NCBI GenBank assembly: GCA_903862955.1
Contig: CAIPAH010000006.1
Coordinates: 1 to 64,000 of the forward strand
Source: an uncultured Opitutia bacterium
GTDB lineage: Bacteria > Verrucomicrobiota > Verrucomicrobiia > Opitutales > Opitutaceae
Length of the DNA stretch: 64,000 nucleotides
Reading direction: 5' to 3'
Part shown: piece after piece, positions 19,759-43,240 of the stretch
How the letters are laid out: the number at the start of each line of letters is the position of its first letter
Position numbering within the stretch: the stretch's first letter is position 1
Notes under the pieces: generated by a model
What the model saw: only the letters and a program-made list of their open reading frames with translations
What the model was told of the DNA's origin: nothing
Databases searched by the model: none
Made by a program: the position numbers and the translations under genes

Positions 19759-19835
19759 TGGTGCGGCCATAGGGAGTCGAACCCCAAACCTCCAGATTCG
19801 TAGTCTGGCGCTCTATCCAGTTGAGCTATGGCCGC
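19759..19835 (-). tRNA. tRNA-Arg (anticodon ACG), CCA encoded
   Basis: The minus strand folds into a full cloverleaf. The acceptor GCGGCCA pairs with TGGCCGC, the D arm is AGCTCAACTGGATAGAGC, the anticodon arm is CCAGA-CTACGAA-TCTGG with anticodon ACG, and the T arm has GGTTCGA. The discriminator is A and the terminal CCA is in the DNA. The A34 would be expected to become inosine and read CGU, CGC and CGA. Confidence 0.96.
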
Positions 19836-31116: not shown

Positions 31117-33705
31117 TCACCGCCACTCGTGTCGCGGGTAGCGTCGCGACAACTCGGCTTTGATCTTCGGATACTGCTCGCGCCAGAAATTGGTCAGATC
31201 GTCCGTCACCTGGATGGGCCGCTGGTTGGGCGCGAGCACTTCGATTTTCACGGGCACGCGGCCGTGTCCAAGGGTGAACTTCCCCTCGATGCCGTAGAGC
31301 TCTTGGATCCGCGCACTGAGCACGGGCGGACCGGCATTAGCATAGGTGATCTTCGAGCGCCGGCCGTTGGCCATGGTGAGCTTCTCCGGCAGGTAATCGT
31401 CGAGCACGGCCAACTGCTCTGCTGTCAGCCAGTCGCGGAGCACCGGCATGACCGGCTTGTCCTTGATGTCGCGGTAACCGAGTTCGCCGTAGCAAATCTG
31501 CTCGATGAGCGTCGCGCGGTCGGCGTCGGTCAACGGGTTCACTTCCAACTCGGGAAACCACTCCGCCAGCCGGTTCACCCGCGTGATCCACTGCTCCACC
31601 GATTCGTCCCACGCCTCCAGCTTCAGCCGGCCCGCCAGCACTTCCTTGGTGAGAAGCGCCGCGGCCTCGTTGAGTGGCGCCTCGTCGCTGCTGCTCTTCG
31701 CCTCCAGCACCAGGTCGCGGAAGCGCCGCTCGCGACGGGACACCACGCGCTTGATGGACTCGTCGAACGTCACCGCCCGGACCTCGCAATAGTCGTCGGG
31801 GAAAATCTCCTTCAGCCATGCCTCGTCGATGGCGGTGGCGAGGGAGAGCAACACGCTGACCTCGCCGCCGCGTCCACCAACTTCGCTGATCTCCGCGGCC
31901 ACGAACAGCGGCACTTTCTGGATCCCGCTCTCGCGGGCGAGCACGCCCTTGCGGTGGTGTACCAGCTCACAGCGCAGCGTCCCACCATCGAGCCGCTTCG
32001 CCAGCTGGTCGGAGAAGCCCGCCAGCACGCACTTGCGCACCTCCGCGCCATCCGTGCGGCGTTCGCTCACATCGAGACCCTCCTTGGCCGCGATCTCGAG
32101 GAACTGCTGGAACAGCGGCCCCACCTGCCGCGCACCCTGCGCGTGCAGGCCGAGCCGGCGGCACGCGTCGAGCGAGTAGTTCGCCTGGTCCGCAAACCGC
32201 CACGCCCGCATCAGCAGGAAAAAGTCGCTCTCGTGTTCCTCGCCCAGCGTGTCTTCGCGCGCCTGCTCCACCGCCTTGGGCACGCCGCGCAGCAGGAAAT
32301 TCCGCCCCTGCGTGAGCGCCGCCATCAACGCCACCGGCCGCACGCAGCCGCGTTCCTGCGCAGCCAGGAACATCCGCGCATACCGCGGGTGCACCGGGAA
32401 ACTCAGCATCGTCCGCCCGATTTCGGTGATGGCTGTAGGAGCGGCTTTACGCCGCGATTCCTCCGTGTCGTCGCGGCGTAAAGCCGCTCCTACAGCGCCC
32501 AAATCCGCTAGCAGGGTCTCCGCGCGCTCCAACGCCTTCGGATCGGGTTTCTCGAGCCAGGGAAAATTGGCGATGTCATCGATTCCGCTGGCCTTCAGCG
32601 TCAGCACGACCTCCGACAGATCGAGCCGCTTCACCTCCGGCAGCTCCTGCAACGCCCGCTGACCGTGCTCGCGTTCCGTCCACAGCCGCACGCACACACC
32701 CGGCGTCGTGCGGCCCGCGCGACCCGCGCGCTGGTCGGCGCTGGCGACGGAGATTTTCTCGATGAGCAACGTGTTGATGCCGCGGTGCGGGTCGAAACGG
32801 GCCATGCGGGCGAGGCCGGAATCAATGACGGTGGTGACACCGTCGATCGTCAGCGAAGTCTCGGCCACATTCGTCGAGACGATGATCTTCCTCGTCTCGT
32901 ACCGTGCCACCGCCCGGTCCTGCTGTTCCGGCGGCAATTCGCCATGCAACGGAAACGCCACAAAATCGCGCAGCGCCCGGGAGCCCTGAATCGCCTGCAC
33001 CGTCCGGCTGATCTCGTAGGCGCCGGGCATGAAGACGAGCATGTCACCCGCCGACTCGCCCGCGACGCGCTCGCACTCGCGCGCGGCGACGTCCCAAACG
33101 GGCTCGTCGTCGAAGTTCACCGCCTTCGGCAGATACTCGAGGCGCACGGGAAAACTCCGACCCTGCGAGACGAGAATTTCGCACGGCGCCAAGTAGGTCT
33201 TCAGCAACCCCGCATCCAGCGTGGCCGACATGACGATCAATTTCAGGTCGGGCCGCGTCGACCGCTGGAGCTGCAGCGCCCGCGCGAGCGAGATGTCGCC
33301 GTAGAGATGGCGCTCGTGGAACTCGTCGAAAACGATCGTGCTCACGCCGCGCAGCTTCGCATCGAACGACATCTGTCGGAGGAGAATGCCCTCGGTGACG
33401 AAGCGAATCCGGGTTTTTTCGCTCACCCGCGACTCCAGCCGGATCTGATAGCCGACGACTTCGCCCAACCCCGTGTCCATCTCCTCCGCCACGCGCTTCG
33501 CCAGCATGCGCGTCGCCAGTCGGCGCGGCTGCAGCACCACCACCTCGCCCTTTTCGCCCAGCAGCCCGTGGCGCAGCAGCATCTGGGGAATCTGCGTCGA
33601 CTTGCCCGAGCCGGTCGGCGCCTGCACGATCAACCGCCCCGACGCCCGCAACGCCGCCACGACTGCGGACTCGAGTTCGTAGATGGGCAGGTCGCGGGGG
33701 GACAT
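31117..33705 (-). CDS. hrpB: HrpB-type DEAH-box ATP-dependent helicase with an in-frame palindromic insertion
   Basis: A superfamily 2 helicase of 862 residues. RecA domain 1 has Walker A QAPTGSGKST (28-37), LQPRRLATRML, the DEFH box (127-130, VFDEFHERHL) and MSATLD; domain 2 has STNVAETSLTIDGV and QRAGRAGRT. The HrpB-specific C-terminal domain ends KAELSRRYPRHEW, like the RYPKHVWP of enterobacterial HrpB. RNA or nucleic acid remodelling is expected; the cellular role of HrpB is unclear. A palindromic element at 32432-32496 lies in frame and adds about 22 residues (near 403-424, including GAALRRDDTEESRRKAAPTA) between the HA2-like and following parts. Apart from that the gene is intact. Confidence 0.9.
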   Translation of the reverse strand: MSPRDLPIYELESAVVAALRASGRLIVQAPTGSGKSTQIPQMLLRHGLLGEKGEVVVLQPRRLATRMLAKRVAEEMDTGLGEVVGYQIRLESRVSEKTRIRFVTEGILLRQMSFDAKLRGVSTIVFDEFHERHLYGDISLARALQLQRSTRPDLKLIVMSATLDAGLLKTYLAPCEILVSQGRSFPVRLEYLPKAVNFDDEPVWDVAARECERVAGESAGDMLVFMPGAYEISRTVQAIQGSRALRDFVAFPLHGELPPEQQDRAVARYETRKIIVSTNVAETSLTIDGVTTVIDSGLARMARFDPHRGINTLLIEKISVASADQRAGRAGRTTPGVCVRLWTEREHGQRALQELPEVKRLDLSEVVLTLKASGIDDIANFPWLEKPDPKALERAETLLADLGAVGAALRRDDTEESRRKAAPTAITEIGRTMLSFPVHPRYARMFLAAQERGCVRPVALMAALTQGRNFLLRGVPKAVEQAREDTLGEEHESDFFLLMRAWRFADQANYSLDACRRLGLHAQGARQVGPLFQQFLEIAAKEGLDVSERRTDGAEVRKCVLAGFSDQLAKRLDGGTLRCELVHHRKGVLARESGIQKVPLFVAAEISEVGGRGGEVSVLLSLATAIDEAWLKEIFPDDYCEVRAVTFDESIKRVVSRRERRFRDLVLEAKSSSDEAPLNEAAALLTKEVLAGRLKLEAWDESVEQWITRVNRLAEWFPELEVNPLTDADRATLIEQICYGELGYRDIKDKPVMPVLRDWLTAEQLAVLDDYLPEKLTMANGRRSKITYANAGPPVLSARIQELYGIEGKFTLGHGRVPVKIEVLAPNQRPIQVTDDLTNFWREQYPKIKAELSRRYPRHEWR
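31126..31157. repeat. 32-base repeat, copy 2 (inside hrpB 3' end)
   Basis: Partner of 29774-29805. It contains an inverted repeat (TGTCGCG and CGCGACA, 8-base spacer) and encodes ELSRRYPRHE of the helicase. Confidence 0.7.
32432..32496. repeat. 65-base palindromic element within hrpB
   Basis: Perfect 26-base inverted arms (32432-32457 and 32471-32496) with a 13-base centre. Each arm begins GCTGTAGGAGCGGCTTTACG and continues CCGCGA. The arms share TGTAGG and GGCTTTACGCC with the repeat after the alpha-galactosidase gene. The helicase frame stays open through it. Confidence 0.92.
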
Positions 33706-33813: not shown

Positions 33814-33825
33814 GAAATCATCGTG

Positions 33826-36315
33826 ATGATCGATCGGCGACGCGCCACGGGCCTTCTTTTCAGCTTGGTGGTGGTCCTGCATGCCGCCGTGCTGCCATTG
33901 GCGCACTCGGCTTCGATCAGTGCGCAGCTCACGACCAAGGAAAAGAACCAACTGCAGCGCGAGGCCCGCATGGTCGTGGATCTCGTGCAGAACCTGCATT
34001 TCTCCGGCGGAACCTTCTATGACATCAAGAACCAGGAGATCATCGACCGATACCTCAGCGAACTCGACCCCGCAGGGGAAATCTTCTCCCCCGATGACGT
34101 GAAGTTCATTCACCAGCGCTTCGACCGCAGCCTGAAGTCCGTCTACCTTTTCCGCGGCGACCTCGAGCCGGCCTTCGAGATTTTCGACCTCTACGCGCAA
34201 CTCGCCCGCGCGCGCTTTGCCTGGGTCAACCGGCGCCTTAGCGGCGACTTTGATTTTACCGTCGACGAGACCTATTCCGAACCGCGGCCGGGCGTGCCCC
34301 CCTCATCAGGGCTGAGCCTGGACAAACGCTGGGAGCTGCGGCTCAAGGATGAAATGCTCCACGAAATCCTCTCGGGCCGCACGCCCGACGAGGCCCGGGC
34401 GAAGCTGCGGGAAAACTACGCCGAGGTGGCCAGCACGATCAGCGCCTTCGATTCGTTTGCCGTCCGCGAGCACTTCCTCGACGCCGCCATCCGCTGTTTC
34501 GATCCCCACAGCGGCTACTCGTCCGCCGACTCCACCCGTGAATTCGCCGTGAACATGAAAGGCACGATCACCGGCGTCGGCCTCGCCATGCGCAAGGAGC
34601 ACGGGGATTGCATCGTCACCGAGGTCAACGCCGGCGGACCGGCCGACCTCCACTCGAGCGTTGCCCCCGGGGACCACATCGAGGCGCTGGCCCAAGGCGA
34701 TGGGCCGTGGGTGGAGACGCACGGCCAGCGGCTGCGGGAAACCGTGGCGATCATGCGCGGGCTCGACCATGAAAAGCTGCGCATCGCCTACACGACGCCG
34801 GGAAAACCGGAGCGCAAGGAGGTCACCTTGGAACGAGGCCGCGTCGTGCTCAGCGGCGACCGGGCCCACGGCGCCATCAGCCAGGTGCCCGTCGACGCGA
34901 CGCATTCCATTGCGATCGGGTGGATCGTGCTGCCCGCATTCTACGCGGGCGGGGAAGGCGACGACACCACGAGTGCGTCCCGCGACGTCCGCGAGCTGAT
35001 CGACCAAATGACCGCGGCCAAAATCAGCGGCTTGGTGCTCGATCTGCGCGGCAACCCCGGCGGCGCGTTGACCGAGGCGGAGGACATGTGCCGGCTCTTT
35101 CTGCCGCAGGGAACCGCCCTGCTGAGCCGTGGCATCAACGGCGCCCTCAAACGCCACACCTTCAAGGAGGACAAACCCCACTTCGACGGGCCACTCGTCG
35201 TGTTGACGTCACCGTTCAGCGCCTCGGCGTCCGAAATTTTCGCCGGCGCGATGAAGTATCACCATCGGGCGCTCATCGTCGGCGGGCCCGCGACCTTCGG
35301 CAAGGGTACCTCACAGAACTACATCGACCTGGCCAAGGCCCAGAACCTGACCGGCGACAGCGTCAAAGACTGGGGCATGCTGCGACTCACCGCGGAACGT
35401 TTTTACCTGCCCGATGGCACGGCCATCCAGCGCCGTGGCGTCCCCTCGGACGTGATTCTGCCTGGCTTCGTCTCGCCCGGCCAGCTGCGCGAGGCGGACC
35501 TGCCCCACGCATTGCCCCCGGAGGACGTGACGCCCCCCGCTGATCCCTCGCCCGAGCCTGCCGCGAAACCCGCGTTGTCCACGGAGCAGCTGCGCGCGCT
35601 CGAGGCCCTCGCCACCGAGGATTTCGGGACATTGCCCGAGTGGAAGTCGTGGCAGAAGGATCACGAATTGCGCTGGGTCAAAGCCGACCGGCACACCCGC
35701 AGCCTGCTGAAGGAAAAGCGCAGCAAGGACTGGGAGACGTTGTTGACGGAGTTCAAAACCGCCCGGCAGACCCGGCGCGAATTTGCGACCCATTCCGCCT
35801 ATCCCACCCAGCGGGTGGACCTCGCGCTTGTCCGCGACGCCGCGGATTCCCATCAGGCCAAACTGCGCGCCCTTCAGGCGGCCGGGAGCCAGACCGCGCT
35901 GCACCGCCTGCAAAACGGCGTTTTCCTCGTGGACACGGAGCACGGGCACCTGCGCGATTTGCGGCTCCAGGATTTCGATTTCCTCCCGCTGGCGAGTGAC
36001 GCCGAATCCCTGGCGGAAGCGTTTAGCCAAGGCAGCGGCCGGAAAGTGACGCCCGGGGACATGCGGGCGACCCTGCAGCAACTGGCGTTGTTGGACCCGA
36101 AGACGGATGAGGCGGTGCTGGCGGTGACCGCAAAACTGGCCGGGGCTCCCGCGGATTCACCCGCCACGCGCAACGGCACCGAGGCCCTCCTGCTGCGCAT
36201 CACGGAGCTGGAGCCGGAACTGCGCGAGGAGCTTCCGGGCTTTGACGTCCCAATGCGCGAATGCCTGCGCCTCTCCGCGCGCTGGGCCAATCAACCGGCC
36301 AGCTCGCAACCTTGA
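33826..36315 (+). CDS. prc: S41 tail-specific carboxy-terminal protease (Prc/Tsp-like)
   Basis: Periplasmic C-terminal processing protease of 829 residues. A signal peptide (MIDRRRATGLLFSLVVVLHA to about 28) precedes a helical Prc N-domain (DLVQNLHFSGGTFYDIKNQEI), a PDZ domain (about 240-330) and the S41 catalytic domain. The Ser-Lys dyad is S467 in SPFSASASEIF and K493 in ATFGKGTSQ. The C-terminal DUF3340-like region is present. The usual PDZ-controlled gate is expected to act on proteins with nonpolar C-termini. An in-frame GTG lies one codon upstream of the chosen ATG. The Sel1-repeat gene follows in the same frame, immediately after the stop. Confidence 0.92.
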   Translation: MIDRRRATGLLFSLVVVLHAAVLPLAHSASISAQLTTKEKNQLQREARMVVDLVQNLHFSGGTFYDIKNQEIIDRYLSELDPAGEIFSPDDVKFIHQRFDRSLKSVYLFRGDLEPAFEIFDLYAQLARARFAWVNRRLSGDFDFTVDETYSEPRPGVPPSSGLSLDKRWELRLKDEMLHEILSGRTPDEARAKLRENYAEVASTISAFDSFAVREHFLDAAIRCFDPHSGYSSADSTREFAVNMKGTITGVGLAMRKEHGDCIVTEVNAGGPADLHSSVAPGDHIEALAQGDGPWVETHGQRLRETVAIMRGLDHEKLRIAYTTPGKPERKEVTLERGRVVLSGDRAHGAISQVPVDATHSIAIGWIVLPAFYAGGEGDDTTSASRDVRELIDQMTAAKISGLVLDLRGNPGGALTEAEDMCRLFLPQGTALLSRGINGALKRHTFKEDKPHFDGPLVVLTSPFSASASEIFAGAMKYHHRALIVGGPATFGKGTSQNYIDLAKAQNLTGDSVKDWGMLRLTAERFYLPDGTAIQRRGVPSDVILPGFVSPGQLREADLPHALPPEDVTPPADPSPEPAAKPALSTEQLRALEALATEDFGTLPEWKSWQKDHELRWVKADRHTRSLLKEKRSKDWETLLTEFKTARQTRREFATHSAYPTQRVDLALVRDAADSHQAKLRALQAAGSQTALHRLQNGVFLVDTEHGHLRDLRLQDFDFLPLASDAESLAEAFSQGSGRKVTPGDMRATLQQLALLDPKTDEAVLAVTAKLAGAPADSPATRNGTEALLLRITELEPELREELPGFDVPMRECLRLSARWANQPASSQP

Positions 36316-36348
36316 CTCGGTCGCGGACCTCCCAATTCACTTCCTGCT

Positions 36349-39159
36349 CTGAGCGCTGACTCCCAGCCCACCCGTTCTGCCCTCCTGATCGCAGCAACTG
36401 CGACAGCCCTGGCCGTCCTCATCTCGCCGCTGCGCGGGTCAGTCGCCGGCGCCCCGTCAGCCATCGACGCCAAGGCCGGCAGCAGTGACGCAAAAGCGGC
36501 GGCAGCCAAGCCGAAGCACGACCCGGCGGCGGAAAAATACTGGGAAGCGGTCCCGCTCATGCAGAGCAAACGGGCTGACGAGCGGGCCGCGGGTCTGGCA
36601 GCCCTCAAGGTTTCGTCCGATCTCGAATTCACGCACGCCCAGGTGCTGCTGGGGAACTGCTACCTCACCGGCTTCAACGGCATGAAGAAGGATCCCCGCA
36701 AGGCGGCCAACCTCTTCCGCCTCGCCGCCGAGCGCGGCAACGCGTTTGGCATGGTCAGCCTCGGGGTGTGCTACTTCATGGGCGAAGGCGTCAGCAAGGA
36801 CGAGGGCAAGTCGATGAAATGGCTGAACGCGGCGCTCGCGCCCGACGCGGACTATTCCTCGCCGCAGGCACCCGTGGAAGTGATGAAGGCCGAAATGACG
36901 GCCCATGCCGACGCCGACGTCGCCGGCTCGATGGAAGCTGACCCGGTGAGCGAGCGCCAGGCGGCGGCACACAGCATTCTGGGTGTCCTGTATACCCAGC
37001 AGAAAAAGCTGCCGGAGGCGCAGGCGCATTTCGTGGCGGCGGCGACCGCCGGGCCGAACGGACGAAGCGGCATCCTGATGGCGTCGGTGGCGGCCGCCGT
37101 GAACTATGCCTTCGGCCAGGGCGTGCCGCGCGACATGGCCAAGGCGAATGAAATGCTCGAGCGCAGCAAGATGCTCAGCACCCGGCTGGGCGTCACCCTC
37201 GTGCAAAACTCCGTGGCGATGAAGCTCACGGACAGTTTCGCAGCGGCGGAGGTGGAGGACCAGATGAAGGAAGTTTTTGGGCGGCTGCAGAGCGAACTCC
37301 AGTTGAGCATCGCCAACTCGCTGGCCGACAAAAAATCGAAGACCTACGACCTCGCCGAGGCGGCCAAGTGGTATGAAGTCGCGGCGGAGAACGGCCAGGT
37401 CTGGGCGATGCTGCCTCTCGCGTTCATTTACTACCGCGGTGATCTCGGCCGCCCCGAACCTGAGAAGGCCTTCAAGTGGTTCGAGGCGTCCGGCAGCGGC
37501 AACAAGCCGAAGCATTTTCTCGGCGTGGCCAACCTGGCGATTTGCTACCAAAACGGCCTCGGGACGGCGAAGGACACCGACAAAGCCGCCGAGCTGTTCA
37601 GGAAATGGCGCAACACCGACATCGTCTGCTACCTCGGATCCATCGGCCAGTGCCCGGCGAAGCCGATGACCTACGAGGAAGTCTTCGCGCTGAACGAAAC
37701 GTGGGCCAAAAAAATGAAGGACCCCCAGGCGCAATACCTGATGGGCGTGAGATATCGCCGGGGTTGGGGCGTGCCCACGGACTATGTTGAGGCGACGAGC
37801 TGGTTCAAGAAAGCCGCCAAGACCGGTCACGGCGAAGCGCTCAACCAATTGGGCGAATTGGTGGACTTCAGCACGATCATCTCGGTCAAAGGCTCGGGTT
37901 CCAGCGACAAGATGTTTAAGGCGCCATTGGAGTATTACCAAAAGGCCGCCGCGGCCGGGAGTGTCCCCGGGATGTTGAACTATGCCCGCATGCTCCAAAA
38001 CGGTTTGGGCGCCCCCGAAAATGTCCCCCAGGCGGAGGCACTCTACCGTCAGAGCCTGACCTTGGATTCCTCCGCCGTCTTCGCCCACCTGAGCCTGGGC
38101 ATCATCGAGGAAGCGAAATTACGGGCCGCCATCGCGGCGCACCAAGATGCCTCCGCCGCAGTCGCCCGGTCCGAAATGCTCGAGCACTACGAGGCCGCAC
38201 GGGCCTTGGACGATCCACGCGCCGCGACCAATTTAGGCATCATTTACCTGCAGGGCGAGCTGGTCGAAAAGGATCTCCGCAAGGCGTATGCCTGCTTGGA
38301 GGATGCCGCCGCGCGCGGGTCCGCCATCGCGCATTACGCGCTGGGACTCATGCATGAACGCGGCGAAGGCGTGCCCGTCACCTACACCGAAGCCGCCTAT
38401 CATTACCGGCTGGCCGCGCTGGAAGGTAACGCCGACGCGCTGCGCCGCCTGATCAATTTCTATCTCTCGGGCCAGGGCGTGTCGCTCGACCTCGACCAAG
38501 CGGCGTTCTGGCTGGATCGGATGCAAAAGATGACGGGCAGCCAGCAGGTGCTGACCACCTATTGCGATGTCATGCTGAAAAAGCACGCCTACGAGAACGC
38601 CCTGACCATGCTCAAGGATCTCACGAATTCGCGCGATCCGCAGATCGCCGGTTTCGCGTATGACCGGCTTTCCGTCTGCTACACCGAGGAATTGGGCGTC
38701 AAGGCCGACCCGTCGCAGGCCAGGAAATACAGCGAGAAAGCCATCAAGCTGGGCTTTGGCGATGCGCTGACACGGCTGGCCATCCGCCAGAAGAACGAAG
38801 GCCACATGGCCGACGCGGTGGCCAATCTTCGCAGGGCTCTCCCGACTTCGCGCCTGGCGAATTATCACCTCGGGCTGATGTATTACAACGGCGACGGCGT
38901 GCCGAAGGACGAGGCCCAGGGAGTGAAATACCTGCAATCGGCTGCTGAAGCCAACCACACCGGTTCCCAGGTCTTCCTCGCCAACCTCACGTTGCACCAT
39001 TCACCCTCGGCGCCCTCGCTGCAGCAAGCGATCAACTATGCCTCGCAAGCCGAAGCCAACGGGCGCGCGGAAGCGGGGGCGGTCCGTGAGGAATTGGAAA
39101 AACGCCAAAGAGGCGCCGAAGACGGATCCGACGCAGTCGCACGCCCCCGATCTTCCTAG
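36349..39159 (+). CDS. Large Sel1-repeat (TPR-like) protein, probably exported, non-canonical start
   Basis: About 936 residues if started at CTG 36349, or 866 from the first ATG (36559). The body has many Sel1 units, for example AVLLGNCYLTGFNG-type and AAERGNAFGMVSLGVCYFMG and ALGLMHERGEGVPV, an alpha-solenoid used for protein-protein contacts. The codons before ATG 36559 keep clear coding character and encode a signal-like leader (SALLIAATATALAVLISPL, then GSVAG) and a linker with KPKHDPAAEKYWEAVPL. Between the upstream TGA and that leader there is no ATG, GTG or TTG. It follows prc in the same frame 34 bases on, so coupling or readthrough is possible. Confidence 0.75.
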   Translation: MSADSQPTRSALLIAATATALAVLISPLRGSVAGAPSAIDAKAGSSDAKAAAAKPKHDPAAEKYWEAVPLMQSKRADERAAGLAALKVSSDLEFTHAQVLLGNCYLTGFNGMKKDPRKAANLFRLAAERGNAFGMVSLGVCYFMGEGVSKDEGKSMKWLNAALAPDADYSSPQAPVEVMKAEMTAHADADVAGSMEADPVSERQAAAHSILGVLYTQQKKLPEAQAHFVAAATAGPNGRSGILMASVAAAVNYAFGQGVPRDMAKANEMLERSKMLSTRLGVTLVQNSVAMKLTDSFAAAEVEDQMKEVFGRLQSELQLSIANSLADKKSKTYDLAEAAKWYEVAAENGQVWAMLPLAFIYYRGDLGRPEPEKAFKWFEASGSGNKPKHFLGVANLAICYQNGLGTAKDTDKAAELFRKWRNTDIVCYLGSIGQCPAKPMTYEEVFALNETWAKKMKDPQAQYLMGVRYRRGWGVPTDYVEATSWFKKAAKTGHGEALNQLGELVDFSTIISVKGSGSSDKMFKAPLEYYQKAAAAGSVPGMLNYARMLQNGLGAPENVPQAEALYRQSLTLDSSAVFAHLSLGIIEEAKLRAAIAAHQDASAAVARSEMLEHYEAARALDDPRAATNLGIIYLQGELVEKDLRKAYACLEDAAARGSAIAHYALGLMHERGEGVPVTYTEAAYHYRLAALEGNADALRRLINFYLSGQGVSLDLDQAAFWLDRMQKMTGSQQVLTTYCDVMLKKHAYENALTMLKDLTNSRDPQIAGFAYDRLSVCYTEELGVKADPSQARKYSEKAIKLGFGDALTRLAIRQKNEGHMADAVANLRRALPTSRLANYHLGLMYYNGDGVPKDEAQGVKYLQSAAEANHTGSQVFLANLTLHHSPSAPSLQQAINYASQAEANGRAEAGAVREELEKRQRGAEDGSDAVARPRSS

Positions 39160-39399
39160 GGTCTCAGCAGTTAAAACAGGGCGTCTGGGCGACAATGCTT
39201 CGTGCAACCCGGGTGCGGTTGGAACCGCGGCGGCGTGAACAACCGGTGAGCCAGTTTATGCCCAAGTTATTCACCGGCGGGCGCGGTGAAGAAGTTGTTA
39301 AGAACAAAACCTTCACTTCGGAAACGGACGTCACAGGTTCGTCACGTTCCTTGATAGAACAGTCGCAGCGCGGCGGCCTGAAAAACCCGCCGGATGCAC
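39160..39399. other. Gene-free stretch upstream of the candidate structured RNA
   Basis: No coding frame with family-like protein. A small hairpin GCGGTT-GG-AACCGC is near 39217. It may hold the promoter or 5' part of the RNA; TTGATA at 39351 and GATAAT at 39406 are possible promoter pieces but not correctly spaced with one another. Confidence 0.4.
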
Positions 39400-40213
39400 G
39401 ACTGGGATAATCCCGGGCGACCGGGGAATGGTCGGTGGCAGCTGGTGCCGCCGTCCCCTTCAGCGCGCGTTAGCGGGTTGATAGGCAGATATCACCAGCT
39501 CCTCTGGCCGGAGTCGTGTCCGGTCAGTTCATCCACGAATCAGGAGCTGAGCGGCCAGGCGCGATCAGAAACCGCGTCCAAGCCGAGTTAGGCCCACGGC
39601 CCGTTTCGAGCCGTGCGCCGACACAGTTACCCCAGAGGGTTATGGTTGCTACTGTGCAGACCAGAACGCAGTCGCGTTTCCCGGCGGGCCAACCCCCGCC
39701 AAAAGGCCCGGTTCGCTTCCGCGAGCAGGGCGCGCAAGGGAAGCACGGCAGCGGGGAGTGAGCGGGCCCGGCAAAGCCCGTCAACCTCCTCAATGGGGCA
39801 GCGTGAAAAAGCACGCCGCCACACTGCAAAACGAACGCAACCTGAGAGTTAAGAGGTCAGACCCGTAACGCAGGGCCAACGGCCAGCCAAAAGCTGGCGC
39901 CGTCCCAGTGGTAACGGTGCCGACGCGAAGTAAGAATTGCAGACGTGTCCGCACCACGTCCGGCGCGCCGCTCCCGGCAGGGGGCGTCCGAACTGGGCGA
40001 AGAGGCCTCACTCAAAAGATCCCGGCCGGCAACGGCCAGGACGGTCCCGCCATGAGACCGAAACATCCGCATGCCGCGGAGAGTGGCGTCGGGAAGCACA
40101 CCGCCCGCGAAAGCGAGCGCGCCCAAGCGTGTGCGATCGGGAAAGAGCGAGTGGCGAACGCCCACCCCCAAATTTGGCCTCGGGACCGCAAGGTCCCGGG
40201 GCCTTATTTTTTT
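39400..40213 (+). ncRNA. Candidate large structured RNA, not assigned to a known family
   Basis: About 800 bases with no credible protein frame but many stems: CAGCTCCT with AGGAGCTG (39496-39503, 39542-39549) stacked on CTGGCCGG with CCGGTCAG (39504-39511, 39520-39527); CACGGC with GCCGTG (39595-39615); GCGTG with CACGC (39801-39816); GCCAGC with GCTGGC (39882-39898); GACGTG with CACGTC (39942-39960). GNRA tetraloops occur in plus-strand sense: GGCCG-GCAA-CGGCC (40024-40037) and CGC-GAAA-GCG (40106-40115). A 12-base stem with a GCAA loop followed by a T run (40176-40213) is a strong 3' end. The tetraloops and terminator fix the strand. I find no RNase P, tmRNA, rRNA, 6S or SRP motifs. The 5' end is uncertain. 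Confidence 0.65.
40176..40213 (+). terminator. Rho-independent terminator of the candidate RNA
   Basis: GGCCTCGGGACC pairs with GGTCCCGGGGCC (one G-T pair) across a GCAA loop and is followed by TTATTTTTTT. Confidence 0.88.
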
Positions 40214-40397: not shown

Positions 40398-41204
40398 ATG
40401 CCCCCTCTTCCACTTTGGCCCAATGGCGCTCCCGGCGCACTGGGCGATCAGCCGCAGGACCAGCCCTCCCTCACAAGTTTTCCGCCGACATCAAAATCCC
40501 CCGGCGCCAGCGTCATCGTGTTCCCCGGCGGTGGCTACGGCATGCTCGCCCCACACGAGGGCGAAGGTTACGCGCACTGGCTCGCCGCGCAGGGCATCCA
40601 TGCCTGGGTGCTGCAGTATCGCCTCGGTCCGCACGGCTACCGTCATCCGGCCATGCTGAACGACGCCGCGCGCGCGGTCCGCACTGTTCGCCATCTCGCC
40701 CGCCAGCAGAAGCTCGATCCCGCCCGCATCGGCGTGATGGGTTCGTCCGCCGGCGGACACCTCGTCGCCACGATCCTCACGCAATTTGACGCCGGGCAAA
40801 ACGGCTCCGCCGACCCGATCGAACGCGAAAGCAGCCGGCCCGATCTCGGCATCCTGTGCTATCCCGTGATCACCCTGCGTGAGCCGCACGCGCATCTCGG
40901 CTCGCGGGAAAATCTCCTCGGTCCCTCGCCCAGCCCCCAAGCGATCGACGCGCTGTCCGCCGAATTGCAGGTCCGGGGCGACAGCCCTCCCGCTTTCATC
41001 TGGCACACGGTCGCCGACAATGCCGTGCCGGTCGAAAATGCCCTCCTTTTCGCCGCGGCGCTCCGCCACGCCGGCGTGCCATTCGCGCTGAGTCTCTACG
41101 AAAATGGCGTGCATGGCTTGGGGCTCGGCACACCCGAGAACCCCGCACCGCCGTGGACGGTGGATTGCCTCCACTGGCTGCGTGAACGGAGGTTCGTGGT
41201 CTAG
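40398..41204 (+). CDS. Alpha/beta hydrolase, acetylesterase/BD-FAE-like
   Basis: A 268-residue esterase. The oxyanion-hole stretch VIVFPGGGYGML (39-50) and the nucleophile elbow GSSAGGHL (S117) match the family of acetyl-xylan and ferulic acid-type esterases; the acid and base residues are likely in HTVADNAVPVEN and NGVHGLGLG (His). LWPNGAPGALG at the start is characteristic of the xylan-associated group. No signal peptide is visible. The start is taken as the ATG right after the GTCATTC heptamer repeat. Confidence 0.87.
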   Translation: MPPLPLWPNGAPGALGDQPQDQPSLTSFPPTSKSPGASVIVFPGGGYGMLAPHEGEGYAHWLAAQGIHAWVLQYRLGPHGYRHPAMLNDAARAVRTVRHLARQQKLDPARIGVMGSSAGGHLVATILTQFDAGQNGSADPIERESSRPDLGILCYPVITLREPHAHLGSRENLLGPSPSPQAIDALSAELQVRGDSPPAFIWHTVADNAVPVENALLFAAALRHAGVPFALSLYENGVHGLGLGTPENPAPPWTVDCLHWLRERRFVV

Positions 41205-41419
41205 TTCGCGTTCGCGCACCGCGCCCACGCCGTAAGTGGCTCAACCGTAGCTTCTCGTGGACCGGGCGGGGCGCTCCGTCCGCAGGCAGCTGACGGTCCG
41301 CCACGGTGTTGCGGGCGGCCCATGTAACGAACGGATTTTCCCGCGCCTTCCGCCTTGCGTTCGCCCCACCCGCTCTGCACGTTCTTCCTTTTTCCCAAGG
41401 ACAGAACGCCTCCGTGCAC

Positions 41420-43240
41420 ATGAACCAGAACATCCGAAACATCGCCATTATTGCCCACGTTGACCACGGCAAGACCACGCTCGTCGACAAGCTGCTCAAG
41501 GAGGGCGGCGTTTTCCGCGCCAACCAGCAGGTCGAGGAACGCGCCATGGACTCCATGGACCTCGAAAAGGAGAAGGGCATCACCATCAAGGCGAAGAACA
41601 CGTCCGTGCACTGGCACGACAAGACCATCAACATCGTGGACACCCCCGGTCACGCCGACTTCGGCGGCGAGGTTGAGCGCGCGCTCCGCATGGTGGATGG
41701 CGTGCTGCTGGTCGTGGACGCCTATGACGGTCCCCAGGCCCAGACCCGCTTCGTGCTCCGCAAAGCCCTCGCCCACGGCCTCAAGGTCGTGATCGTCATC
41801 AACAAGATCGACCGCGAGAACGCCGAGCCCGCCAAGATGTATGACAAGGTGCTCGAGCTGCTGATGGAGCTAAACGCCAGCGAGGAGCAGTTCGACGCGC
41901 CCGTCGTCTATGGCTCCGGCCGCGACGGCTACATGATGTTCCACCTCGGCGAGGAAAAGAAGGACATGAGCCCGCTGTTCCAGACCATCCTCGACCACGT
42001 ACCGCCCCCGTTCGCCAAGCCGAGCGAGCCGTTCCACATGCTCGTGTCCAACATTGATTGGAGCGACTACGTCGGCCGTATCGCCGTCGGCAAGATCCTT
42101 GGCGGCACCGCCCGGGTCGGCGACCCGGTCTTTGTCATCCGCCACTCGGACGCCAAGCGCGTGCGCGCCAAGATCAGCAAGATTTTCGAGTTCACCGGCC
42201 TCGGCACCGCCGAGGCAGAGACGGGCATCGCCGGCAACATCGTCGGCATCGCCGGCTTCGAGGATGTCGACATCGGTGACACCCTCACCGCCGAGGAGAA
42301 CGGCCACGCCCTCCCCTTCACCCAGATCGACCCGCCGACCCTCGAGATGCAGTTCTGCGTCAACGACGGCCCGCTCGTCGGCAAGGAAGGTAAGCTCGTC
42401 ACCTCGCGCCAGCTGCGCGAGCGCCTGTTCCGCGAGCTCAAGACCAACGTCTCGATCTACATCGAGGACTCCGACAAGGCCGGCGTGTTCAACGTCAAGG
42501 CCCGCGGCGCGATGCAGATCGCGGTGCTCGTTGAAACGATGCGCCGCGAGGGCTTCGAGCTCCTCGTCTCCCGCCCGACCGTGATCGAGAAGACCGTGGA
42601 CGGCGCCCGCCATGAGCCGTTCGAGACCGTCTGGATCGAAGTGCCGGACGAGTGCGTCGGCGCCATCATGTCCAACCTCGCCAACCGCAAGGGCATCCTC
42701 ACCAACATGGAGAAGCTGTCGCACTCCACGATGATCGAGGCGACCATCACCACGCGCGGCCTGATCGGCATGGAAATCGACGTCGTCAACGCCACCAGCG
42801 GTCGCGGCGTGCTCAGTCACTTGTTCAAGGAATACGGCCCCTACGCGGGCGAGGTCCTCACCCGCATCACCGGCACGCTCATCGCGACCGAGGCCGGCGA
42901 GACCACCGCCTACGCGCTCGTCATGTGCCAGGAGCGCGGCAAGCTCTTCGTCGGCCCCGGCGAGCAGGTTTACGAGGGCATGATCGTCGGCGAGAATCCC
43001 CGCAACGAGGACATCTCGATCAACGCCGTCCGCGAAAAGAAGCTCACCAACTTCCGCTCCCAGGGTGAAGGCGTCGGCGTCGGGCTCACCCCCGCGACGA
43101 AGCTCTCGCTCGAGCGCTCGATCGAATACATCGCCGCCGATGAATTCGTCGAGGTGACGCCGAAGAACCTCCGCCTGCGCAAGCGCATCCTCAGCCAGAC
43201 AGAGCGCCGCAAGCACGAGCGCTCCGGCAAGGCCGATTGA
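41420..43240 (+). CDS. typA: Ribosome-binding GTPase TypA/BipA
   Basis: Translational GTPase of 606 residues that binds the 70S A site and is involved in stress and cold adaptation and 50S assembly. The G domain has G1 AHVDHGKTT (12-20), G3 DTPGHADFGGE, G4 NKID and the switch I MDSMDLEKEKGITIKAKN. Domains II, III and V and the BipA C-terminal domain are complete; GLIGMEIDVVNATSG and the lysine- and arginine-rich end are typical. The start is ATG 41420 because the earlier ATG (41306) gives a non-family leader. A terminator follows the stop by 16 bases. Confidence 0.96.
   Translation: MNQNIRNIAIIAHVDHGKTTLVDKLLKEGGVFRANQQVEERAMDSMDLEKEKGITIKAKNTSVHWHDKTINIVDTPGHADFGGEVERALRMVDGVLLVVDAYDGPQAQTRFVLRKALAHGLKVVIVINKIDRENAEPAKMYDKVLELLMELNASEEQFDAPVVYGSGRDGYMMFHLGEEKKDMSPLFQTILDHVPPPFAKPSEPFHMLVSNIDWSDYVGRIAVGKILGGTARVGDPVFVIRHSDAKRVRAKISKIFEFTGLGTAEAETGIAGNIVGIAGFEDVDIGDTLTAEENGHALPFTQIDPPTLEMQFCVNDGPLVGKEGKLVTSRQLRERLFRELKTNVSIYIEDSDKAGVFNVKARGAMQIAVLVETMRREGFELLVSRPTVIEKTVDGARHEPFETVWIEVPDECVGAIMSNLANRKGILTNMEKLSHSTMIEATITTRGLIGMEIDVVNATSGRGVLSHLFKEYGPYAGEVLTRITGTLIATEAGETTAYALVMCQERGKLFVGPGEQVYEGMIVGENPRNEDISINAVREKKLTNFRSQGEGVGVGLTPATKLSLERSIEYIAADEFVEVTPKNLRLRKRILSQTERRKHERSGKAD

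Follow-up and report, generated by a model that had tools for sequence, protein, structure and literature searches.

MISL RNA in the Opitutaceae: additional pseudoknots, a conserved 5′ extension with a boxA-like word, and upstream DnaA-box-like sites

Introduction

MISL RNA (Rfam RF03079) was reportedly first described by Weinberg et al. in 2017 (NAR). We found no paper on its function in the open-licence literature. The sole paper that we found to use the term "MISL RNA", to judge from the sections available, is the Ribonanza study (PMC10925082), which includes chemical mapping of a MISL window; the word MISL is absent from the available extracts of a cryo-EM paper (PMC12286853).

The transcription of rRNA operons offers a second point of reference. 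According to the excerpted text of PMC5725501, boxA in nascent rRNA is bound by NusB and NusE (S10), and the Nus complex blocks Rho-dependent termination on rRNA; the gamma-proteobacterial boxA consensus given there is GYTCTTTAANA, and the authors state that their survey left non-coding RNAs unconsidered. DnaA, in turn, is known to regulate transcription from its own promoter and from others (excerpts of PMC8203912 and PMC4447404).

Here we analyse 64,000 nucleotides from an uncultured Opitutia bacterium of the family Opitutaceae (contig CAIPAH010000006.1; hereafter the window, to whose positions all coordinates refer), in which a preliminary description had singled out 39400–40213 as a large structured plus-strand RNA, possibly undescribed. 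MISL is a known Rfam family; to its description we add further elements of the fold, a predicted transcript that is longer and has an rRNA-type leader, upstream DnaA-box-like sites and the usual gene context. The leader, the sites, the fold and the neighbourhood suggest how and when this orphan RNA may be made, and supply testable leads.

Identification, sense and extent of the RNA

The RF03079 model matches the plus strand of the window at 39405–40162, scoring 522.8 bits where the gathering threshold is 274.6, and cmscan covers the model whole, from position 1 to 751 of 751 and without truncation; that the stretch belongs to the MISL family is virtually certain. Thirteen of the 175 RF03079 consensus pairs are non-standard in this copy, which is the only one in its genome. 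The full-length match above the gathering score rules out an undescribed RNA family, and on this point the preliminary description was wrong: the Rfam check gave RF03079, an outcome that the description had itself named as refuting. In its other particulars it fares well. A large structured plus-strand RNA is borne out by the full-length match and by a plus-sense covarying fold, and the proposed limits fit closely the MISL match together with the terminator at 40176–40213. It had also correctly seen none of the landmarks of OLE, GOLLD, ROOL, RNase P, tmRNA, 6S, SRP or rRNA, none of which gave an Rfam match in the MISL region at E ≤1; the only other match there to that threshold is to ctRNA, at 18 bits and far under its cut-off. 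Elsewhere in the window, the sole other above-cut-off Rfam match is a minus-strand tRNA-Arg with anticodon ACG at 19759–19835.

In the paired columns, G-U cells outnumber A-C cells by 423 to 186, in favour of the plus sense. Folding of 39350–40205 gives a z-score of −7.0 for the plus strand and −3.8 for the minus strand (20 shuffles per strand).

At the 3′ end lies a plus-strand intrinsic terminator (40176–40213), with a stem of 12 pairs at 40176–40203 closed by a GCAA loop and followed by TTATTTTTTT; this is the 12-base terminator already noted, and the GCAA and GAAA loops noted with it are visible in the sequence. Terminator-like sites number four in the 1.25-kb region, against 1.9 expected from shuffles; 37 of 41 loci have such a site no more than 200 nt from the end of MISL, as compared to 35 of 343 random stretches. 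At the 5′ end, conservation extends upstream of the Rfam start to about 39346, which had been missed.

Reading frames had been called poor on both strands, and they are: an open reading frame of at least 20 aa retains both its start and its stop in at most 11 (plus) or 7 (minus) of the 37 host-family sequences, and a single stop column is common to up to 31 of the 37 on the plus strand and 29 on the minus strand. On these counts we rejected a conserved open reading frame.

Secondary structure and pseudoknots

The Rfam structure was projected onto an alignment of 37 host-family sequences. Its nested pairs are standard in 90.3% of cells, as compared to 82.1% after shuffling and 37–42% when slid; 96 of the 175 change on both sides, and there are 570 double-changed cells against 173 in shuffled alignments, with no measure reached in any of 500 shuffles. 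Covariation in homologues, which had been put forward as a check, is thus present. The poorest helices are helix 3 (70%), helix 21 (75%, with two pairs that are never standard) and helix 10 (78%), and outside the host family the nested structure is paired in 77% of cells.

Four pseudoknots beyond the Rfam model as displayed by cmscan are supported by the alignments. Each was assessed in the 37 host-family sequences and again in 22 other rows that had not been used in helix discovery and may include some host-family members (one duplicate row was removed, leaving 59 of 60). PK1 joins 39514–39518 to 39534–39538 (UCGUG/CACGA) and is paired in 96.2% of host-family cells and in 109 of 110 cells of the other rows, as compared to 17–46% when slid. 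PK2 joins 39824–39830, with one base skipped, to 39937–39942 (CUGCAA/UUGCAG), paired in 96.8% of host-family cells and 104 of 128 others (slid, 33–47%). PK3 joins 39644–39649 to 39837–39842 (GGUUGC/GCAACC), at 99.5% and 120 of 132 (slid, 27–43%). PK4, between 40048–40053 and 40083–40088 (CGCCAU/GUGGCG), is paired in 100% of host-family cells but has only one double-changed pair among its six; in the other rows, 126 of 132 cells are paired (slid, 12–70%).

An additional nested helix on the plus strand pairs 39671–39674 and 39676–39681 with 39739–39744 and 39746–39749. In the host family it is paired in 88.3% of cells, with nine of its ten pairs double-changed; it is unsupported outside the host family, where its two parts are paired in 34% and 62% of cells as compared to 31–53% and 29–58% when slid. 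Taken jointly, the 33 pairs of the added helices are paired in 95.2% of cells (86.2% shuffled, 32–50% slid) and include 102 double-changed cells against 26 in shuffled alignments; of the five measures, four were never reached in 500 shuffles and one was reached a single time.

The scan for further helices used loose thresholds and has a high false-positive level. Nine scrambled pairing rules yielded 0–17 stems of the same class (12 new ones with the real rule), with 0–4 free of conflict (real rule, three); the best scrambled stem had three covarying pairs and 17 double-changed cells, as compared to 6 and 32, 3 and 26, and 3 and 22 for the best real stems. Because scrambled rules give similar numbers of stems, we claim only helices that were tested separately; PK2, PK3 and PK4 lay outside the top class of the scan and were chosen by eye from its candidate list. 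Since pseudoknots cannot be represented in a covariance model, those who first described MISL may have drawn these already, and PK1–PK4 may be in print.

Distribution

At E ≤0.001, searches with the Rfam model find MISL in 28 of 57 relatives, 80 of 150 host-family genomes and 30 of 387 genomes from across the phylum (26, 79 and 27, respectively, above the gathering score; the window's own genome is included in each count), and in none of 14 control genomes. These searches used stricter filters, which lose weak matches. Presence is patchy within genera, and the 70 of 150 sampled host-family genomes that have no match under these filters suggest that MISL is dispensable. Eighteen of the 70 were searched again with laxer filters and none gave a match over the cut-off; at E up to 10, three of them gave matches of 8.8–14.2 bits, none near the typA gene described below, which we take to be chance because 2 of the 14 control genomes scored at the same level. 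Weak or decayed MISL copies in these 18 genomes were rejected on those grounds; cmscan of four typA loci returned nothing up to E 0.5. The earlier suggestion that the RNA may belong to the core of its lineage is therefore borne out only in part.

A pattern for the conserved core, which matches 46 of 48 MISL sequences, also occurs in named genomes, at least 119 times. Among these, the 80 matches listed carry either titles that we take to denote Verrucomicrobia/Opitutae-type groups or plain "bacterium". Of 16 core-pattern loci submitted to cmscan, 15 exceed the gathering score and L206 alone falls short of it. Some genomes have two MISL matches (e.g. G438, G455 and G515).

The 5′ leader and promoter

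The conserved 5′ extension occupies 39346–39404, immediately upstream of the Rfam start, and consists of GTTCCTTGATAGAACAG followed by a stem. Within it, a boxA-like word, GTTCCTTGATA, lies on the plus strand at 39346–39356, near the predicted 5′ end of the transcript. A strict pattern for this word is found at 28 of 31 host-family loci and at all 10 others, with 0.003 expected per 250 nt; a relaxed pattern, which is the strict one widened by hand to include its three misses, is found at 41 of 41 loci against a background of 0.017 per 300 nt. The leader stem, P0 (39360–39404, plus strand), pairs CAGTCG at 39360–39365 with CGACTG at 39399–39404 and, inside these, CGGCGG at 39371–39376 with CCGCCG at 39387–39392; across the 31 host-family regions it has four double-changed cells in the outer part and 13 in the inner part, counted without a shuffle control.

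A comparison with rRNA leaders was possible in one genome. No rRNA genes were found in the window's own genome, and 16S rRNA was found in one of 15 relatives, G361, the only one in which rRNA leaders are readable; by eye, both of its rRNA leaders contain GATCTTTCACAG, and its MISL leader contains GATCTTTGACAG. The host-family word differs at two positions from GYTCTTTAANA, a consensus that is gamma-proteobacterial (PMC5725501), and it sits in an inverted repeat, GTTC/GAAC, whose purpose could be a different one. The word might accordingly be part of the RNA fold or of some other signal and not a NusB/S10 site at all, a reading that we consider unlikely given that, outside the host family, the inverted repeat is often absent and GTTCTTTGA or GATCTTTGA is retained, and that the word nearly matches that of the G361 rRNA leaders. 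From these comparisons, a boxA leader on MISL appears quite probable.

All ten loci outside the host family have −35-like words of the TTGAC or TTGCA type before the boxA-like word, 36–37 nt away in seven and 51–53 nt away in three (noted without a background count); in the latter three, a small hairpin can be seen by eye between the two elements. No consensus sigma-70 promoter was found in the window. Because the −35-like words precede it so shortly, transcription should begin close to boxA. NusB and S10 would then bind the boxA-like word and make the polymerase resistant to termination, as it is on rRNA operons, by which, we propose, the long untranslated MISL RNA would escape being cut by Rho. 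If true, boxA would be found to serve a large RNA outside the ribosome as well; among the matches listed in our literature searches, no paper combined boxA with ornate large RNAs.

Upstream DnaA-box-like sites

Upstream of the leader, the window has a DnaA-box-like site, TTATTCACC, on the plus strand at 39267–39275. In the 350 nt upstream of the 41 loci, the word TTATTCAC occurs 57 times, as compared to 0.12 expected, and is present at 36 loci (28 of 31 in the host family and 8 of 10 elsewhere). These sites seem to go with MISL, being present where the neighbouring genes differ. A perfect DnaA box, TTATNCACA, is found at 13 of the 41 loci, namely 5 of 31 in the host family and 8 of 10 outside it. 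At the dnaA loci of nine genomes, TTATTCACA is found in six and TTGTTCACA in two more, and the ninth locus (G014), cut by a contig end, shows no box; in several relatives (dnaA loci L314 and L317–L321), the dnaA match is preceded by TTATTCACA at a distance of about 60 nt. A box ahead of dnaA fits DnaA autoregulation.

DnaA control of the MISL promoter is, on this evidence, close to an even proposition, a little short of one. If it holds, DnaA would tune the promoter and tie MISL output to replication or growth. There is a real possibility that a regulator other than DnaA binds the upstream TTATTCAC sites: the usual host-family site is TTATTCACC, mostly ending in C against the A of the DnaA box, the perfect TTATNCACA is confined there to the five loci just mentioned, and some of the sites are palindromic (e.g. 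in G030 and G314). What speaks against another regulator is that TTATTCACA stands at 8 of the 10 loci outside the host family, the same word as at six of the nine dnaA loci.

The sites are also clustered, with two or more at 25 of 41 loci when a looser word is used, as might be expected if they marked a replication origin or a DnaA sink that MISL merely adjoins. That reading is improbable: MISL lies off the cumulative skew minimum in three complete genomes (a coarse test, with 20 × 20 kb sampling), it has no regular proximity to dnaA, and the TTATTCAC sites occur with differing neighbour genes. We rejected the replication origin on the skew test, coarse as it is.

Gene neighbourhood

In the host family, MISL usually lies between two genes. 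In the window, hrpB, encoding a DEAH-box helicase (TIGR01970 over cut-off), is on the minus strand at 31117–33705, and typA/bipA, encoding a translational GTPase (TIGR01394 over cut-off), is on the plus strand at 41306–43240, the coordinates being those of the listed reading frame, whose true start probably lies inside. Among 31 host-family regions (from 29 genomes, with flanks of up to 8 kb), 28 have typA downstream in the orientation of MISL and 27 have hrpB upstream in the opposite one; outside the host family, neither is found near MISL in any of 10 regions, within the available flanks, some of them short.

A cis-acting leader or attenuator of typA would account for a same-strand typA downstream in those 28 regions, at its nearest 110 nt from MISL. 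We nonetheless rejected it as very improbable, on the strength of MISL's own terminator in 37 of 41 loci and of the variable distance to typA, which reaches 4741 nt with other genes intervening; in the 10 regions outside the host family, typA is absent from the available flanks, some of them short.

All 18 MISL-lacking relatives that were examined possess typA, and eight of them keep hrpB within 10 kb, with gaps of 74–1129 bp between the aligned parts. In none of these eight hrpB–typA gaps is there a boxA, any DnaA-box-like site or the core of MISL, AGACCCGT: in these 8 of 18 relatives, the whole MISL cassette is absent as a unit.

Other genes share the interval. Between hrpB and MISL, the window encodes an S41 tail-specific peptidase and a long Sel1-repeat protein (33823–39159), which have few homologues near MISL in other regions; between MISL and typA it encodes an alpha/beta hydrolase (40398–41204), with similar reading frames in eight other regions and, by eye, in the hrpB–typA gap of the MISL-lacking G028. 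Two second MISL copies, G199b and G372a (loci L071 and L076), lie away from hrpB and typA and keep boxA; no upstream DnaA-box-like site was found for them with the looser word.

MISL on RNA-phage contigs

In two IMG/VR contigs, MISL in sense orientation adjoins, on the 5′ side, ssRNA-phage sequences that differ between the two. L132 carries it at 1–567, from model position 144 and continuous to about 610 (254.5 bits, below cut-off), next to a phage part with a maturation protein by Pfam. L325 carries it at 62–813, from model position 1 to about 734 (543 bits), next to a phage part with a replicase by Pfam and a maturation protein below its cut-off. Further pattern matches, L326 and L327, have no MISL.

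Two such contigs and the patchy presence of MISL within genera might suggest an RNA carried by phages or plasmids, as GOLLD and ROOL are, yet we hold this to be very unlikely for MISL: it has a usual chromosomal place in the host family, blastn finds no match to it among 50,697 phage records and 72,556 plasmid records, an absence on which we rejected phage or plasmid origin, and the two contigs look like cDNA chimeras whose MISL break points differ. Differing break points with MISL 5′ in both would be expected if reverse transcriptase switched templates at the 5′ end of a phage RNA, so L132 and L325 are probably cDNA or assembly chimeras; capture of host MISL RNA by ssRNA phages is an alternative that we do not favour. 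Because the contigs carry ssRNA phages, we infer that the libraries behind them were made from RNA and that MISL was present in them as RNA.

Discussion

Our best explanation of the locus, which we hold to be probable on balance, is a free-standing gene whose untranslated product, an RNA of about 0.86 kb, acts in trans and is made by rRNA-style antiterminated transcription, possibly under DnaA control. The more specific proposal, that MISL is made via an rRNA-type boxA antitermination leader from a DnaA-governed promoter and has a knotted core absent from the Rfam model, we advance only tentatively. If it is true, a large structured RNA would be wired to both the replication-initiation and the ribosomal transcription machinery of Verrucomicrobiota. 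The folded RNA may act as a ribonucleoprotein, perhaps at the ribosome, as its boxA and usual place beside hrpB and typA faintly hint; a ribosome-linked action is a guess, and one that we think rather doubtful.

Comparison with known systems

MISL resembles OLE, GOLLD and ROOL in its size class, its ornate fold and a function that is unknown or only partly known, and differs from them in that the window's MISL region has no match to their Rfam models at E ≤1. RF03079 itself is matched at full length (522.8 bits over 751 model positions), whereas the 5′ extension, boxA, stem P0 and the pseudoknots are all absent from the model in its cmscan display. From rRNA operon leaders, in which a hairpin precedes boxA, the MISL leader differs in that MISL is not an rRNA and its NusB/S10 site is a predicted one; the likeness lies in a boxA-like word soon after the promoter of a long untranslated RNA, a word that in G361 is near-identical to that of both rRNA leaders.
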